NCBI GenBank assembly: GCA_025350645.1
Contig: JANXXM010000129.1
Coordinates: 1-36,416 of the forward strand
Direction: 5' to 3'
Source: Ferruginibacter sp.
Lineage (GTDB): Bacteria > Bacteroidota > Bacteroidia > Chitinophagales > Chitinophagaceae
Length of the DNA stretch: 36,416 bases
Shown here: one piece after another, positions 1 to 36,416 of the stretch
How the letters are laid out: each line of letters opens with the position of its first letter
Position numbering within the stretch: position 1 is the first letter of the stretch
Notes under the pieces: generated by a model
Told to the model about the DNA's origin: nothing
What the model saw: only the letters and a program-made list of their open reading frames with translations
Database searches by the model: none
Program-made: the position numbers and the translations under genes

Positions 1-81
1 TATTTTGCCATCTTGCTCTGTACGGCGGAGTCTTTTTAATGTTACCACTTCTTCGTTTGTTAGATCTATTGAGTAAGACAT
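1..81 (-). CDS. N-terminus of a possible helix-turn-helix / IS630-type transposase protein (cut by window edge)
   Basis: Only the first 27 codons lie in the window, starting at an ATG (complement of 79-81) and open to the left edge. The peptide begins MSYSIDLTNEEVV and continues with a basic stretch rich in Lys and Arg. It resembles, from memory, the start of the small winged helix-turn-helix proteins that form the first half of IS630-like transposases in Bacteroidota. No terminal inverted repeat was found in the 68 bases before the next gene. Too little is present to be sure; it could be any small DNA-binding protein. Confidence 0.35.
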   Translation of the reverse strand, partial: MSYSIDLTNEEVVTLKRLRRTEQDGKI

Positions 82-149
82 AAGTATATGTTTGGTTACT
101 CAAAGATATATAATCGGAATTATTTAAGCAAATTAGTATAAATGATTTT

Positions 150-1023: not shown

Positions 1024-1800
1024 ATGAGCTACGAAATAAAAGAAGACGGCAAATTTAAATTTATAGAAGAAGGAGAGGGAGAGATACTTCTGTTACTGCA
1101 TGGCCTCTTTGGTGCATTGAGCAATTTTGCTGATCTTATAGAAAATTTTAAGAAAACAAATAAAGTAGTAGTACCGCTTTTGCCACTGCTGGATATGGAC
1201 CTGCTTAGTACATCTGTGAGCGGTTTGCAAAAATTTGTAAACCGGTTTATAGAACACCGTAATTATAATAATATTAATTTGCTGGGCAATTCTCTTGGCG
1301 GGCATGTAGCATTAGTACATATTTTAAAACATCCTGAAAGAATAAAATCTCTTACACTTACGGGCAGTTCCGGATTGTTTGAAAGTGCTATGGGAGATAC
1401 TTATCCAAAGCGGGGAGATAAAGAATATATACGAAACAAAACTGCTCTTACTTTTTATGACCCTGCAATGGCTACAGAAGAGCTGGTAGATGAAGTTTTT
1501 GAAATAACCAACAACAGAATAAAAGTAATAAAAATTATTTCGCTTGCAAAGAGTGCCATACGCAATAATGTAGGTGATGATCTAAAAAATATAACACAGC
1601 CCACTTGCTTAATATGGGGTAGCAACGATAATATTACGCCAGCTTTTGTAGGAGAAGAATTTCATAAACTCATACCAAATAGCGAACTACATTTTATAGA
1701 TAAATGCGGGCATGCTCCGATGATGGAAGTGCCAGAAGAATTCAATAAAATATTAAGCACATTTTTGGCAAAATTAAAAACACCTGCTGCTACCGTTTAG
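1024..1800 (+). CDS. alpha/beta-fold hydrolase
   Basis: This 258-residue protein shows the complete alpha/beta hydrolase set. LLLLHGLFG near residues 22-30 forms the oxyanion region, the nucleophile elbow GNSLGG contains Ser90, the acid is Asp202 in WGSNDNITP, and the catalytic His is His230 in KCGHAPMMEVP. There is no signal peptide, so it is cytoplasmic. Length and spacing are typical of small esterase/lipase-type hydrolases, and the substrate is unknown. It heads a plus-strand run (CBS protein, POTRA barrel protein, NAD kinase); the gap to the CBS gene is about 70 bases, which permits cotranscription. Confidence 0.9.
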   Translation: MSYEIKEDGKFKFIEEGEGEILLLLHGLFGALSNFADLIENFKKTNKVVVPLLPLLDMDLLSTSVSGLQKFVNRFIEHRNYNNINLLGNSLGGHVALVHILKHPERIKSLTLTGSSGLFESAMGDTYPKRGDKEYIRNKTALTFYDPAMATEELVDEVFEITNNRIKVIKIISLAKSAIRNNVGDDLKNITQPTCLIWGSNDNITPAFVGEEFHKLIPNSELHFIDKCGHAPMMEVPEEFNKILSTFLAKLKTPAATV

Positions 1801-1869
1801 CAGTTTATTTTTGTTTAAAACAATACGGGATTATATTCTTTGCGTATCTTGTTATAAATAAAGTTGCCC

Positions 1870-2532
1870 ATGCTTACAAAAAACCTCATCAATAATAATA
1901 TACCAAGGTTACAGCTACAGGATAGCATAGCAAAGGCTTTGCAGCTTATTACAGATTTTAGGATAACCCATTTACCTGTTGTGGCAGATGATAAATTTTT
2001 AGGTCTTATAAGTGAAGATGACCTGCTGGATGCCGAAGATGAAAAACTACCTATAGAAGTTTTGCAAAATACATTTATACCTGCGGCCGTAAGAGAAGAT
2101 GATCATTTTCTTAATGCTGTAAACAGCAGTATTCTGTTTGATACCAGTGTGGTGCCTGTTATAAATACTGCTAATGAATTTGCAGGCGTTATTACTACAA
2201 ACGATCTTTTAAAAACTCTTGGAAACTTTAGTGGTGCAAACGAAATAGGCGGCATTATTGTAATGGAAATGGAGCGCTCACAATTTGCTATATCTGAAAT
2301 AAGCCGCATTGTAGAAAGTAATGATTGTACCATTTTGCATTTAAACACAACAACGGACCCTCTTACCGGCATTCTCACAGTTACCATTCATATAAATAAT
2401 AAGGAAATAGCTGCTATAGTTGCCACTTTTGAACGATATGATTATGATGTAACTTATTATTTTGGTACAGAAAAATTTGAGAACGAAGTGCAAAGTAATT
2501 ATCAAAATCTCATGAACTATCTGGATATTTAA
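1870..2532 (+). CDS. CBS-domain protein with C-terminal ACT-like region
   Basis: The 220-residue product has two CBS motifs (about residues 3-60 and 65-120, with ITHLPVV and GVITTNDLL signatures) followed by a beta-rich region near 130-205 that looks ACT-like. Such pairs bind adenine nucleotides and sense energy state, but no effector domain is attached. An in-frame TTG lies two codons upstream at 1864; the ATG at 1870 is the more likely start. In many Bacteroidota this gene is found close to NAD kinase, as here; that synteny is recalled rather than checked. Confidence 0.85.
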   Translation: MLTKNLINNNIPRLQLQDSIAKALQLITDFRITHLPVVADDKFLGLISEDDLLDAEDEKLPIEVLQNTFIPAAVREDDHFLNAVNSSILFDTSVVPVINTANEFAGVITTNDLLKTLGNFSGANEIGGIIVMEMERSQFAISEISRIVESNDCTILHLNTTTDPLTGILTVTIHINNKEIAAIVATFERYDYDVTYYFGTEKFENEVQSNYQNLMNYLDI

Positions 2533-2582
2533 AAAGCATATCACATCAAAATAAATTTTCTATCATTATTTACCTGAGGCTG

Positions 2583-4013
2583 ATGTATACATTTTTCAGA
2601 TGTTCATTTCTTTTTCTCTTTTGCATAATTACTACACACTTATATGCACAGGATGTGATAATACCAGATCTTATTACTAGCGGAAATGATTCTTTATCTG
2701 TAAAAATATCTTCTATAAACGTAATAGGCAATAAACATACAAAAACATATATTATATTAAGAGAAATGCAGTTTGCTGCAGGCGATATCCTCCGCAAAGA
2801 TAAACTCTCCGTTAATTTTTTACAGGCCAGAAACCAAGTGTATAATACCAGCCTTTTTACAGAAGTTACAATAGACTCCGTTTTTATAAATGATAGCAGC
2901 CTTGCGGTAAATGTGCATGTAAAAGAACGGTGGTACATTTATCCTTCTCCTGAGTTTCAAATAACGGACAGAAGCTACAATGAATGGATAAAAGTATACA
3001 ATGCAAACTTAAACCGGGTAGTGTACGGCGTAAAATTTGTGCACAATAATTTTAGTGGCAGAAATGATAAGCTGCGTATTTTTTTGTTGAATGGATATGC
3101 AAGGAATATTGCCGTTCGCTATAGTAATCCTTACAGCAACAACAAGCTTAACCAGGGTTTTGGCTTTTCTGCTGGCTTTACACAAAACAGGGAAATAAAC
3201 TACAAAACGAATTTTTACAATAAATTACTGCAATATAAAATTCCTGGTTTTGTACGAAACAGTTTTGGCGCATCTGCATTTATAAGCAGGCGAAATGGCT
3301 TTTTTAAAACCCATGCTTTTTCTGCTGCGCTTAATTATATTATTGTTGCAGATAGTGTAATTACCAAATACAATCCTTCTTATTTTAACGATACAAAAAG
3401 GTATCAGCTTTATCCATCTATAGGGTATGGCTTTAGTTATGTAAATACCAATAATAATAACTACCCTCAAAAAGGAAAAATATACAGCTTTAATGTGAGT
3501 AAAACCGGTACAAGGATAACAGGGGGTATAAATAATTTTACTGTGGGAGGAAGCTATTCTTTGTTTGCGTCCCATGCACATAATTTTTTTAGTGCCGTGG
3601 AAAGTTCTGGTTTTATCCGCCTGCCATTGGAGCAGGCATATATCAACCGCCGGGCAATGGGCTTCGGCGCATTCTATATACGCGGGCTGGAGAATTATGT
3701 AATAGATGGGGTGGCTGCAGGGATTGTAAAATACACGCTCAGTAAAAAACTACTGTCATTTAATATTCCTGTGCCTTTTCATATAAAAGCTTTGCCTGTA
3801 ATACCTGTAAAAATATTTGCCAAAACGTATGCAGATGCAGGCTACAGTTACATAAAAAATACATATAACAGCCGCCTCAATAATAAAATGCTGTATAGTG
3901 CTGGTTTCGGCTTAGATATTCTTACGCTGTACGATATTAATATAAAGCTGGAATACAGTTTTAACCAGTTAGGCCAAAATGGGTTATTTTTGCACGGCAG
4001 AGGTGGCTTTTAA
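2583..4013 (+). CDS. POTRA-domain outer-membrane beta-barrel protein (BamA/TamA-like)
   Basis: The 476-residue protein starts with a signal peptide (hydrophobic run to about residue 22, cut after YAQ). One POTRA domain follows at about residues 40-117, with INVIGNKHTKTYIILREM and ALAVNVHVKE-type strands (SSLAVNVHVKERW). The remainder is rich in alternating aromatic and polar beta strands and ends in Gly-Gly-Phe, as outer-membrane barrels do. With a single POTRA domain it is shorter than true BamA (five POTRAs), so it is better read as a BamA-superfamily 'surface antigen' or translocase relative. It lies 50 bases after the CBS gene and 31 before NAD kinase, probably in one transcript. Confidence 0.8.
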   Translation: MYTFFRCSFLFLFCIITTHLYAQDVIIPDLITSGNDSLSVKISSINVIGNKHTKTYIILREMQFAAGDILRKDKLSVNFLQARNQVYNTSLFTEVTIDSVFINDSSLAVNVHVKERWYIYPSPEFQITDRSYNEWIKVYNANLNRVVYGVKFVHNNFSGRNDKLRIFLLNGYARNIAVRYSNPYSNNKLNQGFGFSAGFTQNREINYKTNFYNKLLQYKIPGFVRNSFGASAFISRRNGFFKTHAFSAALNYIIVADSVITKYNPSYFNDTKRYQLYPSIGYGFSYVNTNNNNYPQKGKIYSFNVSKTGTRITGGINNFTVGGSYSLFASHAHNFFSAVESSGFIRLPLEQAYINRRAMGFGAFYIRGLENYVIDGVAAGIVKYTLSKKLLSFNIPVPFHIKALPVIPVKIFAKTYADAGYSYIKNTYNSRLNNKMLYSAGFGLDILTLYDINIKLEYSFNQLGQNGLFLHGRGGF

Positions 4014-4044
4014 AAACAATATTTAAATAACCTCTTTCATAAGC

Positions 4045-4923
4045 ATGAGAATAGCCATTTATAGCAGGGGTATAGAAAATAACCAGTTACAGGATATACA
4101 AAGTTTAATAAGTTCTCTTAAAATATATGGTGCAGAGCCTGTTTTTTTTCAGGACTTCTTCAACACATTTTATTGTTCCATAAAAATGGAAGGTAGTTAC
4201 TCTACTTTTAGCAGTGCAGATGATCTGGATCTTAGCATTGATTGTATGATAAGCCTTGGCGGTGATGGTACTTTGCTAGATACCGTTACCCTGGTAAAAG
4301 ATACAGGCATACCCGTATTGGGCATAAATTATGGCAGGCTGGGCTTTTTAGCAAGCATAGGCAAAGAAGATTTACATACAGCACTTGCAGCACTGGCACA
4401 ACGAAAATATGTACTGGACAGCAGAACGCTTATACATGTAGATGCCAATATCCCTTTGTTCGGAGATGTTCCTTATGCACTCAATGAATTTTCGCTGCAC
4501 AAAAAAGATATTTCTCCGATGATAAAAATTCATACCTATTTAAACGGAGAGTTTTTAAATACTTATTGGGCAGATGGTATTATACTAGCCACGCCCACAG
4601 GCTCTACAGGTTATTCTCTTAGTTGTGGCGGGCCAGTAGTTTTCCCTGATAGTGCAAGTTTTGTAATTACCCCCATTGCCCCGCATAACCTTAACATACG
4701 CCCCATAATAGTGCCCGATAATACCATTATATCTTTTGAAATAGAAGGCCGAACAGACGGCTTTTTGTGTACGATGGACAGCAGAAGGGAAATTGTACAA
4801 AAAGAAATACAGATAGCGGTAAAAAAAGAAACATTCGGTATAAACCTTATTCGCTTTCATGATAATAATTTTTTGCAAACGCTACGCAATAAATTATCGT
4901 GGGGGCTGGATAAAAGAAATTAA
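4045..4923 (+). CDS. nadK: NAD kinase
   Basis: ATP- (or polyphosphate-) dependent phosphorylation of NAD to NADP in the cytoplasm. The 292-residue protein has the diagnostic GGDGT motif at residues 72-76, NYGRLGFL at 95-102, the conserved Asn-Glu pair at 147-148, and the Gly/Thr-rich loop ATPTGSTGYSLS at 182-193 that contacts NAD. Length matches bacterial NadK/PpnK. The ATG start at 4045 is well placed relative to the MRIAIYSRG opening typical of the family. The upstream neighbours suggest a housekeeping operon. Confidence 0.96.
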   Translation: MRIAIYSRGIENNQLQDIQSLISSLKIYGAEPVFFQDFFNTFYCSIKMEGSYSTFSSADDLDLSIDCMISLGGDGTLLDTVTLVKDTGIPVLGINYGRLGFLASIGKEDLHTALAALAQRKYVLDSRTLIHVDANIPLFGDVPYALNEFSLHKKDISPMIKIHTYLNGEFLNTYWADGIILATPTGSTGYSLSCGGPVVFPDSASFVITPIAPHNLNIRPIIVPDNTIISFEIEGRTDGFLCTMDSRREIVQKEIQIAVKKETFGINLIRFHDNNFLQTLRNKLSWGLDKRN

Positions 4924-5002
4924 TTAAAGAAAAATAATTTAAATCTAATTATCAGTTGAACTCCGTTTATTAAACCGCCACAAAATAATTTGAGCAAAAT
5001 AA

Positions 5003-5983
5003 ATGATGCCATTCACCATAAAAAAAATAAAAAAAGCCTTTATTATTTACTGGGTATTGCTAGCATATATTGTGGCAGCGCTGGTGTGGTGGTTTATTGC
5101 ACTTAACAGGCAAAATACACAAATGAGTTTTTATAAACTGCAGGATGTTAGTAGAAATGATGTAAGCTATATTCCAAAAACTGAAAACATTATAAAAGAA
5201 CAAAAAACAAAAACAGCTCAATACATTGGTGAGGGTGTTACGTTTTTATTATTGATTATAGCAGGCGCCATATTTGTTTTTAGAATAGTAAGGAGGGAGC
5301 TGAGGGTAAGTGCAGAGCAGCAAAATTTTATGGTAGCCATTACCCACGAGTTAAAGACACCTATAGCAGTATCTAAACTAAACCTGGAAACACTTCAAAA
5401 AAGAAAACTGGATGAAACACAGCAGCAGCGGCTGCTTTACAATACACTGCAGGAAACAAACCGGTTAAACACGCTCTGCAATAATATGTTATTATCTTCC
5501 CAGATAGAAGCGGGCGGGTATATTCCAACAAATGAAGAAATTGATTTTTCAGAAACAGTAAACGGATGCATAAATGATTTTAAAACACGCTATCCTGCAA
5601 GAGAGATAACAGCGCAGGTAGAAGAAAATATATTTGTAACAGGCGATGTCTTTTTGTTTCAGATAGCAGTAAATAACCTTATAGAAAATGCTATAAAATA
5701 CTCGCCGAAAGAAAAACCAGTTATAATAAAATTATTTGTTGAAAACCAGACAGCAATTTTAAAAGTTACTGATGAGGGACTGGGCATAAGCGATACTGAA
5801 AAGCAAAAAGTATTCGAAAAATTTTACCGTACAGGCAATGAAGCCACAAAAAGAGCTAAAGGTACCGGGCTGGGTCTTTACCTTGCTAGCCGCATAAGTA
5901 AAAAACATGGTGGCAACATTGCCATACACAATAACCCCGCAGGCGGCAGTATATTTGTACTTTCGTTACATGCAAACGTATAG
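5003..5983 (+). CDS. sensor histidine kinase, two transmembrane segments
   Basis: The 326-residue kinase has TM1 near residues 13-34, a short periplasmic loop of about 40 residues, TM2 near 78-97, and no evident HAMP domain. It continues with a HisKA dimerisation helix carrying phospho-acceptor His115 (THELKTP) and a HATPase_c domain: N-box 224-230, G1 DEGLG 257-261, F-box FEKFYRTG 271-278, G2 GTGLGLYL 287-294. All catalytic motifs are intact. It precedes its likely partner response regulator by about 80 bases. The small periplasmic domain suggests sensing by the membrane segments or a partner protein; the signal is unknown. A second ATG three bases downstream (5006) is an equally good start. 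Confidence 0.92.
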   Translation: MMPFTIKKIKKAFIIYWVLLAYIVAALVWWFIALNRQNTQMSFYKLQDVSRNDVSYIPKTENIIKEQKTKTAQYIGEGVTFLLLIIAGAIFVFRIVRRELRVSAEQQNFMVAITHELKTPIAVSKLNLETLQKRKLDETQQQRLLYNTLQETNRLNTLCNNMLLSSQIEAGGYIPTNEEIDFSETVNGCINDFKTRYPAREITAQVEENIFVTGDVFLFQIAVNNLIENAIKYSPKEKPVIIKLFVENQTAILKVTDEGLGISDTEKQKVFEKFYRTGNEATKRAKGTGLGLYLASRISKKHGGNIAIHNNPAGGSIFVLSLHANV

Positions 5984-6063
5984 TATACACTGTAGTTTTA
6001 AAAAATTCATTTTTACACAATTCATTTTATAAAATTATTTACCCACTTTAAGAAGAAATAATA

Positions 6064-6768
6064 ATGGATAAAAAATATTCTATTTTACTGGTAGAAGACG
6101 AAGAGAATTTACAGGAGGCGCTAAGGCTAAACCTGGAGCTGGAGGGGTATGATGTAAGCAGCAGCTATGATGGAGCACACGCATTAAAAATGGTAAGCCA
6201 GGAGCATTTTGATTTGCTCATTCTGGATGTAATGCTGCCGGAGCTGGATGGAATAAGTGTTTGCGAAACCATACGATTATCTAATACCGAATTACCCATA
6301 TTGATTTTAAGTGCAAAAAACAGCAGTGCAGACAGGGTACTTGGTTTAAAAAAAGGGGCAGATGATTATCTTACAAAACCCTTTAACCTAGAGGAACTTT
6401 TATTGAGAGTAAATAAACTTATTAAAAAAAGTGAGCAATTATCGTTAAAGCAACCCCTGCCCGATTTGTATGAGTTTGGTAAAAATAAAATAGATTTTAA
6501 AGCCTCAGAGTCTGTGAGCAGATCCGGACAAAAAATTATACTTACAAAAAAAGAACTAATGCTGCTGAAATTACTTATTGAAAATAAAAACGAAGTTGTA
6601 CCCAGAGAAAAAATTTTGCAGGCGGTATGGGGTTACAACGTATACCCTACTACCCGTACCATAGATAATTTTATTTTAAGCTTTAGAAAATATTTTGAAG
6701 ATGACAGCCGCAGCCCTGTTTATTTCCATTCTGTAAGAGGTGTGGGGTATAAGTTTACAGATCGATAA
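6064..6768 (+). CDS. OmpR/PhoB-family response regulator
   Basis: The 234-residue regulator has a receiver domain with acidic pocket Glu11/Asp12, phospho-acceptor Asp55 (LLILDVMLPELDG), Ser83 and Lys105 (DYLTKPF). A C-terminal winged-helix DNA-binding domain occupies about residues 138-232 and ends in the usual HSVRGVGYKF. It should be phosphorylated by the kinase encoded just upstream and then bind promoter DNA. The gene order is kinase first, regulator second, both on the plus strand. The target genes cannot be read from the window. Confidence 0.95.
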   Translation: MDKKYSILLVEDEENLQEALRLNLELEGYDVSSSYDGAHALKMVSQEHFDLLILDVMLPELDGISVCETIRLSNTELPILILSAKNSSADRVLGLKKGADDYLTKPFNLEELLLRVNKLIKKSEQLSLKQPLPDLYEFGKNKIDFKASESVSRSGQKIILTKKELMLLKLLIENKNEVVPREKILQAVWGYNVYPTTRTIDNFILSFRKYFEDDSRSPVYFHSVRGVGYKFTDR

Positions 6769-6800: not shown

Positions 6801-8444
6801 TTAACTCCGCTCCATATTGAGCATTTGTATTACAGTTTGCGCCCTTGCATAAATACTGTTTACCTGCTCTGTTTTTTCGAAAGGAGTATATAACTGCCAT
6901 TCAATATCTTTTATTAACTGCACAACAAGCAGGCTGGTATCATTGCCTATACCTGCCTTTTCCATTATGGTACTTATTGTTTTAGTATTGATAGCGGCAC
7001 TGTTATAATTAAATATTTTAGCCAGGTAATCTTTTAATTCTGCATTTAAAATGCTGTAAAAGGTTATGCATTCTTCCTGTAATAAACACTGGGCTGTTTT
7101 TGACAGCGGGTTTTGCTGCGCAGCATTTATTATATTACTAAACTTTTTTTCATGGTTTAAAACAGCTGCATCTGCGGGTAAACGAACGGGTGAATCTTTT
7201 TTCTCTTTCCTGATTAAAAATAATATTAAAGCAACAAAAATAATCCCTGCAATAAGTAAAATAATTAACCATCGCCTTGCAAATAATTTATTAAATATAC
7301 TTTCTTCTTTTTGATGAAAAACAGCAGCCGGGGCTGCGGCAACAGCAGTACTTTTTACAACACTAAAAGGAATTTCTTTTGTACTAAGTATTTTATATGA
7401 TGCAGTAGCAGGATCAAAAAAACTAAAATTTATAGAAGGAAAAATATAATTACCGGTATTTTGTACAGAAAAAGGAATTTCAAATGTTTTGCTGCCGCTA
7501 ATCGGTATGGTGGTTTTATCTGTATTATCTGTAACTTTTAATTCAAAAGCCTCAAAGCCTGCTGGCCACGATATATCTGGGCAGGTAAGCAACTGCATGT
7601 TTCCTTTTCCGGCAATGCTGAGTATAAGTTTTCCTGTTTCCTGTGTAGAAAAATTATTTTTTTCCAGAGTAGCTTCTATTTTAAAGTTACCAACTGCTCC
7701 TTTAAAAGACAATGGTTTACCCTGCTCTGGCAAAGGCTTTACGGTAACGATTAAAGGCTTACTGCTAAGGCTTACATTTTCTGTAACCAGTGCATTAGGA
7801 TCTATAGTATAAGCACCTGTACTGTTACTGCCATTATATTGTACAAATTGTATTCTGTTATCCATAGTAGCCGTTTCCAGTTCTATGGTTCCACTTTGTA
7901 AAGGATACAACTGGGCTTTGCGAATAATATACACGTTATATTCTTTTCCGTTCAGCTTTTCTCTTCCATAATTATTTAACCCGTCATTCTGCTGCATATC
8001 GACCACAGAAAAACCATTGAAGGAAGGATTTTTTGTTAAGTTACTTTCACTTTTTAAACGGGAGTATAATTTGTATGTTGCAAGAATCGGTTCTCCTTCA
8101 TATACACTGGTTTTATCTGTGTGTAGCTTAAGCTGCATATTTCTATTCACTTTTTCCTGCACACTTTCTCCTTTTTTTAAAATATAATCCTCAAACCGGG
8201 CGGCAGGTTGTTCTTCTTCAAAAGGATCTAACCCTGCAAACGGGCTTTGCATTACATTATTATTTTGCCCGCTGTTGTTTTCTACTACATTCACAGTTAC
8301 CCCATTGCTACGGCAAGTTTTACCGGCTATTACAGCGGTAGCACCTGCGATATTTATTTTGCCTTTATGTTTCGGTTTTAAAATATAACTTATGGCTATG
8401 TATTGTTTTACATTACCATTTACAGAGGTCATACCACTTATGGA
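6801..8444 (-). pseudogene. batD: batD remnant, 5' end missing
   Basis: About 548 codons of a BatD protein, the Bacteroidota periplasmic/inner-membrane protein of the Bat (aerotolerance) operon. The readable part starts in the first BatD beta-domain (SISGMTSVNGN, then SYILKPKHKGKINI), continues through repeated Ig-like strands, and has one TM helix near 7210-7275 (WLIILLIAGIIFVALILFLI) plus a cytoplasmic tail to a normal stop. The signal peptide and roughly the first 50-70 residues are absent: reading further upstream runs antisense into a marR gene. An ATG-like start at 8486 would add 14 residues antisense to marR and should not be trusted. The other bat genes, expected upstream, are not in the window. 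The product could not be exported without its signal peptide. Confidence 0.8.
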
Positions 8445-8740
8445 AAGAAGACGGGCAAAGCCAGCAGCAACTTTGCGATGCCACATTTAGAGATAAACCG
8501 AGTATTACAAGATTAGTAGACAACCTGGAAAAATTAAATCTTGTAAAAAGAACATCCAGCAAAACAGACCGGCGGATAAATAAAATATGCCTTACACCCG
8601 AAGCAGTAAAACTGCAGGAACTGAGCATGGAGGTAGCTAACCAGACGCTGAATGAAGCATTGACAGGGGTTACAAACGGACAAATAGAAATAGCAAAAGA
8701 AGTATTGCAGAAAGTTTATGAGAACTTAAATGGTATTTAA
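8432..8740 (+). pseudogene. MarR-family regulator fragment, 5' end missing
   Basis: Plus-strand reading gives YHLWKEDGQSQQQL, then DKPSITRLVDNLEK (recognition helix), the wing with TDRRINKICLTPEA, and a C-terminal dimerisation helix to a TAA at 8738-8740. This is the winged-helix half of a MarR repressor, about 102 of the usual ~150 residues; the N-terminal dimerisation helices and start codon are missing. The missing part ends where the batD remnant begins. It lies 80 bases before an acyl-CoA dehydrogenase gene, and MarR regulators of fatty-acid degradation often sit in such a place in Bacteroidota, so it may once have controlled that gene. No long ORF was reported here because there is no start codon. 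Confidence 0.8.
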
Positions 8741-35122: not shown

Positions 35123-36109
35123 GTGAAAATTAAAAGTATAGAATTAGATAATTTTAAATCGTTACTCAATTTTAAATTGATTGAACCTAATGCATTTTCA
35201 GTTTTTGTAGGAGCAAATGGTGTGGGAAAGAGTAATATTTTTGAAGCGTTGGAGTATATGACTTTTAAATCATTCAACAATTGGGAAAGTACTGATGAAC
35301 TTTTTGGTGGCTATCAAAATTTTACCAATTCCAATAATATAGACAAGGATATATCAATGGATTTAAAAGGATTTTCTGGAGGATTTTCTGTGATGAAAAG
35401 ACCGTCTAAAAATGTTTACGATTATGAACTAAACGAAATAAAAGATAGTGTTGCAAAAGACAGAGAAGAAGGAGAATTCTATAGACAATTTATAAAAAAC
35501 TTCTCTCGAATATTTATCACCTCCAAAGAAGCAAACAAACTAAACCTTTCCAACTCCGATAAGAAATTAAATTTTAATTGTGATAACCTCGAAAATGTTT
35601 TAAAAAGAATTTTAGATGAACCATTAAAAGCGTTGGAAATAAAAGAGTGGATGGATTTATTGAGACCAGGTTTTTCAGATATAAAAATGGAGAAAGATTT
35701 AAGCGGAAAATCGGTTATACAGTTTTACGAAGCTGAATATGAAAAGCCATTTGCAAAAAATTTAATTTCTGATGGAACTTATAATATTCTTTGTTTACTT
35801 ACTGCTATTTATCAAACAGATGAACCTCAGTTTTTGTGCATTGAAGAACCAGAGAATGGTTTAAATCCTTATGCTGTAAAAGAACTCGTTAAGTTTTTCA
35901 GACAACAATGTGCAGACAAAGGACATTGTATCTGGCTCAATACACACTCCCAAACAATAGTGAATTTACTAAAACCGGAAGAAATAATTATTGTAAATAA
36001 AAAAGAGGGTATCACTGATGCTAGACAGTTGAAAGACAAAAATATGCATGGCTTACCAATGGATGAAGCTTGGCTTACCAATAGTTTGGGAGGAGGAGTG
36101 CCATGGTAA
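35123..36109 (+). CDS. AAA15/OLD-like ATPase of an ATPase-TOPRIM pair
   Basis: A 328-residue SMC/ABC-like ATPase starting with GTG at 35123. It opens with IELDNFKSLLNF, followed by Walker A GANGVGKS (30-37), the SDGTYN signature-like segment, Walker B FLCIEEPENGLNP with Glu241/Glu242, and an NTHS switch (His275). Its stop overlaps the start of the next gene by seven bases, as in tightly coupled two-gene systems. ATPases of this type are found in PARIS (AriA), AbiL and RloA defence modules; which one, if any, cannot be decided here. Codon use is slightly less Chitinophagaceae-like than its neighbours, a weak hint of transfer. Confidence 0.8.
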   Translation: MKIKSIELDNFKSLLNFKLIEPNAFSVFVGANGVGKSNIFEALEYMTFKSFNNWESTDELFGGYQNFTNSNNIDKDISMDLKGFSGGFSVMKRPSKNVYDYELNEIKDSVAKDREEGEFYRQFIKNFSRIFITSKEANKLNLSNSDKKLNFNCDNLENVLKRILDEPLKALEIKEWMDLLRPGFSDIKMEKDLSGKSVIQFYEAEYEKPFAKNLISDGTYNILCLLTAIYQTDEPQFLCIEEPENGLNPYAVKELVKFFRQQCADKGHCIWLNTHSQTIVNLLKPEEIIIVNKKEGITDARQLKDKNMHGLPMDEAWLTNSLGGGVPW

Positions 36110-36416
36110 AAATTGGATTTATTTGCGAAGGGGAAACAGAAAAGATTATTATACAGTCAGAAAATTTTCAAAAATTTCTTTTAAATAACAACCTTGCCCT
36201 GGTAAATGCAATTGACGCCACAGGGAACGGAAATTTATTACCTAAAAATATACAGCCATTCATTGAAATTTTAAAAGAGGACGGTGCTCAGAAAATATTT
36301 ATTCTTACAGATTTAGATGCTGATAAATGTATAACTAAAACAAAAGAGAGAATAAATGCGCCTGATGACATAATTGTTATTATAGCTGTACAACAAATTG
36401 AAGCATGGTTTTTTGC
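36103..36416 (+). CDS. TOPRIM-like partner of the ATPase (cut by window end)
   Basis: 104 residues are visible from ATG 36103. The TOPRIM acidic set is present: EGETE near residues 9-13 and a DLDAD motif (Asp70, Asp72, Asp74) after strand KIFILT. QQIEAWFF follows, typical of DUF4276/RloB-like families. TOPRIM domains of this kind are nucleases or nucleotide-acting toxins in defence systems. It overlaps the ATPase stop and has no start of its own outside it. The catalytic fold cannot be completed because the rest is missing. Confidence 0.7.
   Translation, partial: MVKIGFICEGETEKIIIQSENFQKFLLNNNLALVNAIDATGNGNLLPKNIQPFIEILKEDGAQKIFILTDLDADKCITKTKERINAPDDIIVIIAVQQIEAWFF

Follow-up and report, generated by a model that had tools for sequence, protein, structure and literature searches.

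The locus analysed here raises the question of how a batD gene on the minus strand and a marR gene on the plus strand came to meet head to head at positions 8431-8439, both without their 5′ ends, and whether this arrangement exists in the cell or only in the assembly. The window, that is, the whole stretch of DNA analysed, is the complete contig C170, 36,416 bp long, from a draft genome that totals 3,606,145 bp over 185 contigs, with a completeness of 99.31% and a contamination of 0.84%. The features that bear on the question are the following.

1024..6768, plus strand: block facing batD, with genes for an alpha/beta hydrolase, a CBS-domain protein, a POTRA-domain protein, a further open reading frame, a histidine kinase and a response regulator
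6801..8438, minus strand: batD lacking ~75 codons at its 5′ end, which would encode the signal peptide and the beginning of the N-terminal domain; the frame is open, with no internal stop
8431..8439, no strand: the junction, where the 7 bases TACCACT (8432-8438), at most 9 bases, fit both genes
8432..8740, plus strand: marR lacking ~46 codons at its 5′ end as well as promoter and operator; the frame is open as far as the stop codon
8821..10614, plus strand: gene for a FadE-type acyl-CoA dehydrogenase, adjoining marR on its 3′ side

At the far end of the window, positions 35123-36416 hold an AAA ATPase and a DUF4276-like gene, a pair interrupted by the contig end; its best PADLOC matches were HEC-01A and HEC-01B, marking it as a candidate defence pair.

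Two gene fragments and their junction

The minus-strand open reading frame 6801-8486 encodes 561 aa, with BatD sequence from residue ~17 on. It matched the Pfam BatD profile PF13584 (E 2.3e-18) with a score of 67.1 bits versus a gathering score of 24.1, the best stretch beginning at residue 17 of the frame, which aligned from profile position 42 (of 92) onward. The match to the intact BatD of the genus relative G031 started at G031 residue 76 (76-616). The window protein is therefore like other members of the PF13584 family (Bacteroides aerotolerance) in scoring above the gathering threshold and in aligning with genus relatives over ~540 residues, but as assembled it differs from them in that ~75 N-terminal residues and the signal peptide are absent. 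When aligned with BatD from 43 loci, it entered the family at SGMTSVNGN; the residues before SGMTS were antisense marR, and no signal peptide was seen in this frame when the alignment was judged by eye. The earlier note had read genuine BatD up to SISGMTSVNGN, which held for SGMTSVNGN but not for the preceding S-I (8440-8444), where most relatives have Q-E. BatD homology thus extends to 8438, at most to 8439.

On the other strand, the frame 8342-8740 aligned with intact MarR from YHLWKEDG on, in agreement with the earlier reading, and MarR homology began at 8432, at most at 8431. In the two Pfam MarR profiles, the match of this frame began at positions 12 and 18. Upstream of the winged helix, the N-terminal part, which in MarR proteins consists of dimerisation helices, is incomplete, the first ~46 residues being absent, and the first in-frame ATG, GTG or TTG left in the fragment lies at 8627, 37 codons from the end. 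The fragment shares with the genus MarR that precedes a FadE-type acyl-CoA dehydrogenase gene (NF058590) both its sequence (87% identity to G076, 86% to G031 and 86% to G021) and its downstream gene, but as assembled it lacks the first ~46 residues, the promoter and the palindromic operator.

Pfam profile entries and family alignments confirmed that batD and marR both lose their 5′ ends at one junction, and alignment to the intact proteins placed the breakpoints at 8438/8439 for BatD and 8431/8432 for MarR, so that both homologies end at the same point. The 13-base stretch 8432-8444, proposed earlier to be compatible with both proteins, shrank to 7 bases, at most 9. In 300,000 random joins simulated from the window and C176:1-20000, C176 being another contig of the same genome, a shared word of at least 7 bp occurred in 0.098% and one of at least 9 bp in 0.009%. 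The microhomology is above chance, yet it is as compatible with a library chimera as with a real illegitimate join. GC content showed no clear step over the junction, a measure with little power for joins within one species.

Intact genes and their order in relatives

BatD was found at E 1e-40 in 63 of 93 genus genomes, the source genome included. The 62 relatives gave 63 rows, and in 61 of these the match began at query residue 10-23, the start of the BatD-like part of the window protein; the exceptions were G002 (from 96) and G014 (from 276, cut by a contig edge). Similarly, the BatD head was present in 40 of 43 aligned loci, the others being G002, which has a short start and no first domain, and G014 and G088, both at contig edges. 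The BatD frame of G002 (L025) has 494 aa, with a short signal-like start but no first domain. A BatD scan of named genomes gave one match, at 52% identity, in a Ferruginibacter MAG, which makes Ferruginibacter the probable genus.

The usual setting of batD in the genus is a 3′ end that faces the gene for a two-component response regulator; upstream of batD lie a short-chain dehydrogenase (SDR) gene and then a divergent HAD-type hydrolase gene. The block at 1024..6768 faces batD in the same order in seven of eight long relative regions, G008 having only its last two genes. Of 27 genus loci, 24 have the SDR gene in this upstream position (G010 and G014 are cut by contig edges, and G025 has no SDR within 1.5 kb), so no bat genes are expected there. 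On the other side, marR adjoins the acyl-CoA dehydrogenase gene in 22 of the 22 relatives with flanks examined, a count that joins 14 loci and 11 loci with three genomes shared, covers the acyl-CoA dehydrogenase matches of 12 loci only and leaves the weak MarR matches L064-L069 outside. With batD intact in relatives and marR beside the acyl-CoA dehydrogenase gene in all 22, an ancient shared arrangement was rejected.

Both genes lie on one contig in two relatives only, and in both they are co-oriented. In G066, the plus strand carries the acyl-CoA dehydrogenase gene at 1.685 Mb and, 313 kb away, batD at 2.000 Mb; in G018, the minus strand carries batD at 113 kb and, 382 kb away, marR at 497 kb. 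From such an arrangement a deletion alone cannot place both tails head to head, but an inversion can, and so can a false join. These orientations are supporting rather than conclusive, coming from two genomes of a genus in which gene order varies.

Gene order in the source genome differs from that of its sisters at other places. On C160 (L041; 8,212 bp), which carries the SDR and HAD genes with atpA on the other side, atpA adjoins the SDR gene (L041:289-2848) where relatives have batD, another gene-order difference from the sister species. Furthermore, the glycosyltransferase gene that adjoins marR in G031 and G076 is on C97 here, with no marR beside it. Because of these two differences, real rearrangement is no rarity in the source lineage.

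The missing batD start and a probable misjoin within one genome

Searched against the source genome with E up to 10, the intact BatD of G031 matched exactly two places, the window and C176:14-136. The second match is on the minus strand in the first bases of a 45,551-bp contig and covers BatD residues 10-49 (45% identity, E 6.9e-4). It consists of a signal-peptide-like stretch ending in AIHAQ, followed by VKFSASISPENAGKDEYITYRLIAENTERI and then by the contig end, so that after 50 residues the frame is cut off at base 1 of C176. In the alignment, ~20 residues lie between the end of this head and the SGMTS region of the window; by this comparison the C176 head is complementary to the window batD, with ~20 codons missing between them. 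The first 300 bases of C176 found no match in the window and 20 other pieces of the same genome, so C176 does not overlap the window. If contig ends were random, the chance that any of the 370 ends landed in this 225-bp stretch would be roughly 2.3%. The window batD, the window marR and the C176 head are all open frames with no decay. The upstream neighbour of the batD head on C176 is a divergent M36 metallopeptidase gene, where relatives have the SDR gene. We infer that C176 adjoins the left part of the window in the genome.

Because a complementary batD start lies at the end of C176, the cell probably has an unbroken batD, and the window is probably misjoined. We hold it fairly probable that the junction is an assembly or library artefact inside the genome of one species rather than a real mutation; assembly chimerism, which the earlier note had offered as the alternative to its deletion, is thus the better supported reading. 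In the cell, batD would run unbroken from the C176 start through ~20 unassembled codons into the window, and the window marR would have its own head upstream of the acyl-CoA dehydrogenase gene. A chimeric read or a local mis-extension at the shared word of 7-9 bp would have united the two loose ends, giving a join presumably absent from the cell. A natural break in two conserved genes at once would be unusual.

The two sides of the junction do not speak equally for a misjoin. A likely continuation of the batD side was found at another contig end, C176, which supports it, whereas a continuation of the marR side at another contig end was not found, which counts against it. A search of the assembly for a head of the window marR found only the different, complete marR of C160 and the window tail, and the head was likewise absent from C97, where it was sought beside the glycosyltransferase gene. 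This negative result speaks against a clean misjoin and also against a clean inversion.

An overlap of 7-9 bp is too short for a join by a de Bruijn assembler unless some reads contain the junction; such reads would come from a minority variant or from a chimera made in the library. As to the assembler itself, the left end of C160 (its first 141 bp) has 139-143 bp in common with five other contig ends at 99-100% identity, and the title of the named relative's contig carries k141, pointing to an assembler with k=141 behind these shared ends. This repeat recurs at many contig ends of the assembly; the left end of the window (63-143) shares ~30 bp of it, and window positions 63-140 equal the start of C142. 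The repeat was also considered as a transposase end, a candidate dropped when its 44-aa frame gave nothing below E 0.07 in Pfam.

In a benchmark of assemblers, MEGAHIT gave 22.15 chimeric contigs per genome versus 2.63 for SPAdes, the joins being between different reference genomes (PMC11261854), and library chimeras formed by mis-annealing at microhomology have been described in formalin-fixed tissue (PMC8674242). The window is like a chimeric contig of a short-read metagenome in its abrupt switch of locus inside two genes, its short shared word and the missing piece at the loose end of another contig, but the benchmark counts joins between genomes and the window join would lie within a single one.

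Less likely readings: inversion, deletion and a mixed sample

The main rival of the misjoin is a real inversion that broke batD at one end and marR at the other and that is either fixed or carried by some of the population. It would have joined the tails here and the heads elsewhere, and the second complete MarR, on C160, could stand in as regulator. We regard it as unlikely, though it has several observations on its side. The genes are co-oriented in both genomes that carry them on one contig, and a join of the two gene tails is what an inversion produces; the gene order of the source lineage is rearranged relative to its sisters; and an inversion would likewise put the end of C176 near a breakpoint. 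The batD head on C176 and the right end of C160 are, in addition, loose ends with no shared sequence found, C160 having been searched as DNA against the whole genome (40 of 188 candidates scored) and C176 by protein and against 22 genome pieces, and they could be the reciprocal side. Against it, the reciprocal junction of marR head and batD head was not found in the contigs of the assembly, C176 stops ~60 bp short of the expected reciprocal join, and neither fragment has decayed. An inversion thus requires two conserved genes broken at once together with an unexplained gap at the reciprocal join. We prefer the misjoin because it explains why the one batD head in the assembly is found at a loose contig end and complements the window fragment, a coincidence with the rough chance of 2.3% given above.

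The second MarR bears on the inversion as a possible backup. It is complete on C160 (L041:7758-8198), lies behind a fatty acid hydroxylase gene and has its stop 14 bp from the right contig end. Because the window tail has 86-87% identity to G076, G031 and G021 and 71% to the C160 MarR, the window marR is, on sequence identity, the ordinary genus copy and the C160 marR a diverged second copy. Among 21 genus relatives, 14 have one close MarR and seven have none. The palindrome-like AGTTGYHTAAACAACT stands directly before the marR start in 23 of 25 relative loci (L050-L063, L074-L084) and on C160 (L041:7740-7755), and is likely a MarR autoregulatory operator. The C160 marR keeps this operator and the conserved promoter; in the window, AGTTGYHTAAACAACT had matches with three mismatches only, 4 versus 4.27 expected by chance. 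No sequence shared with the right end of C160 was found in the whole-genome DNA search (40 of 188 candidates scored), which suggests that this end is a real dead end. C160 was also considered as contamination, but with its DNA as query neither atpA nor frr turned up a second time among the 40 candidates scored of 188, and the contig was retained in this genome. A putative tandem marR1-marR2 connecting C160 to the window is possible. It is improbable, in our estimate, that an inversion, perhaps switching in the population, breaks batD and the marR before the single acyl-CoA dehydrogenase gene while the diverged second MarR with the same operator takes over its regulation.

A deletion of everything between a divergently pointing batD and marR, which the earlier note had favoured as a loss of upstream bat genes and the marR head, now seems very improbable. 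Both 5′ ends and the intergenic DNA are indeed absent from C170, and the shared word of 7-9 bp at the join would suit such an event. The batD head, however, is still in the assembly on C176, so the sequence between the breakpoints is not absent from the genome, and in the two informative relatives the genes point the same way and lie at a great distance from each other; on these two grounds the deletion is contradicted. Furthermore, the SDR gene, not bat genes, occupies the upstream position in 24 of the 27 genus loci.

By score among 58 genus relatives, G031 and G076 were the nearest on the right side for the acyl-CoA dehydrogenase (86/86%) and the amidohydrolase (82/81%), and among the 62 relatives with a BatD match on the left side G076 came first (55%), G064 second (52%) and G031 third (52%). 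Because both halves have the same nearest relatives, the join most likely lies within one lineage. A chimera of two species in a mixed sample is the least credible reading and very improbable: the source genome does have two MarR genes where, by close matches, 14 of 21 relatives have one and seven have none, and the MarR tail singles out no relative, but G031 and G076 are nearest on the right and third and first on the left, and the batD tail and the acyl-CoA dehydrogenase (the sole match in the source genome at E 1e-150) are single.

The preferred reading, a misjoin within one genome, implies that such a join need not show in a contamination estimate, here 0.84%, and that it can mimic a double gene truncation; seeking the missing gene piece at the end of another contig is a general check. 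For the proteins themselves, a Leptospira paper describes a predicted signal sequence for BatD and notes that experiments had not yet demonstrated a specific function for Bat proteins (PMC3557215). If the join were real, family knowledge suggests that the assembled BatD, without its signal peptide, should not be exported, and that it and MarR, without its N-terminal helices, would probably both be dead. The locus would then be a naturally occurring double knock-out, possibly with a backup regulator.
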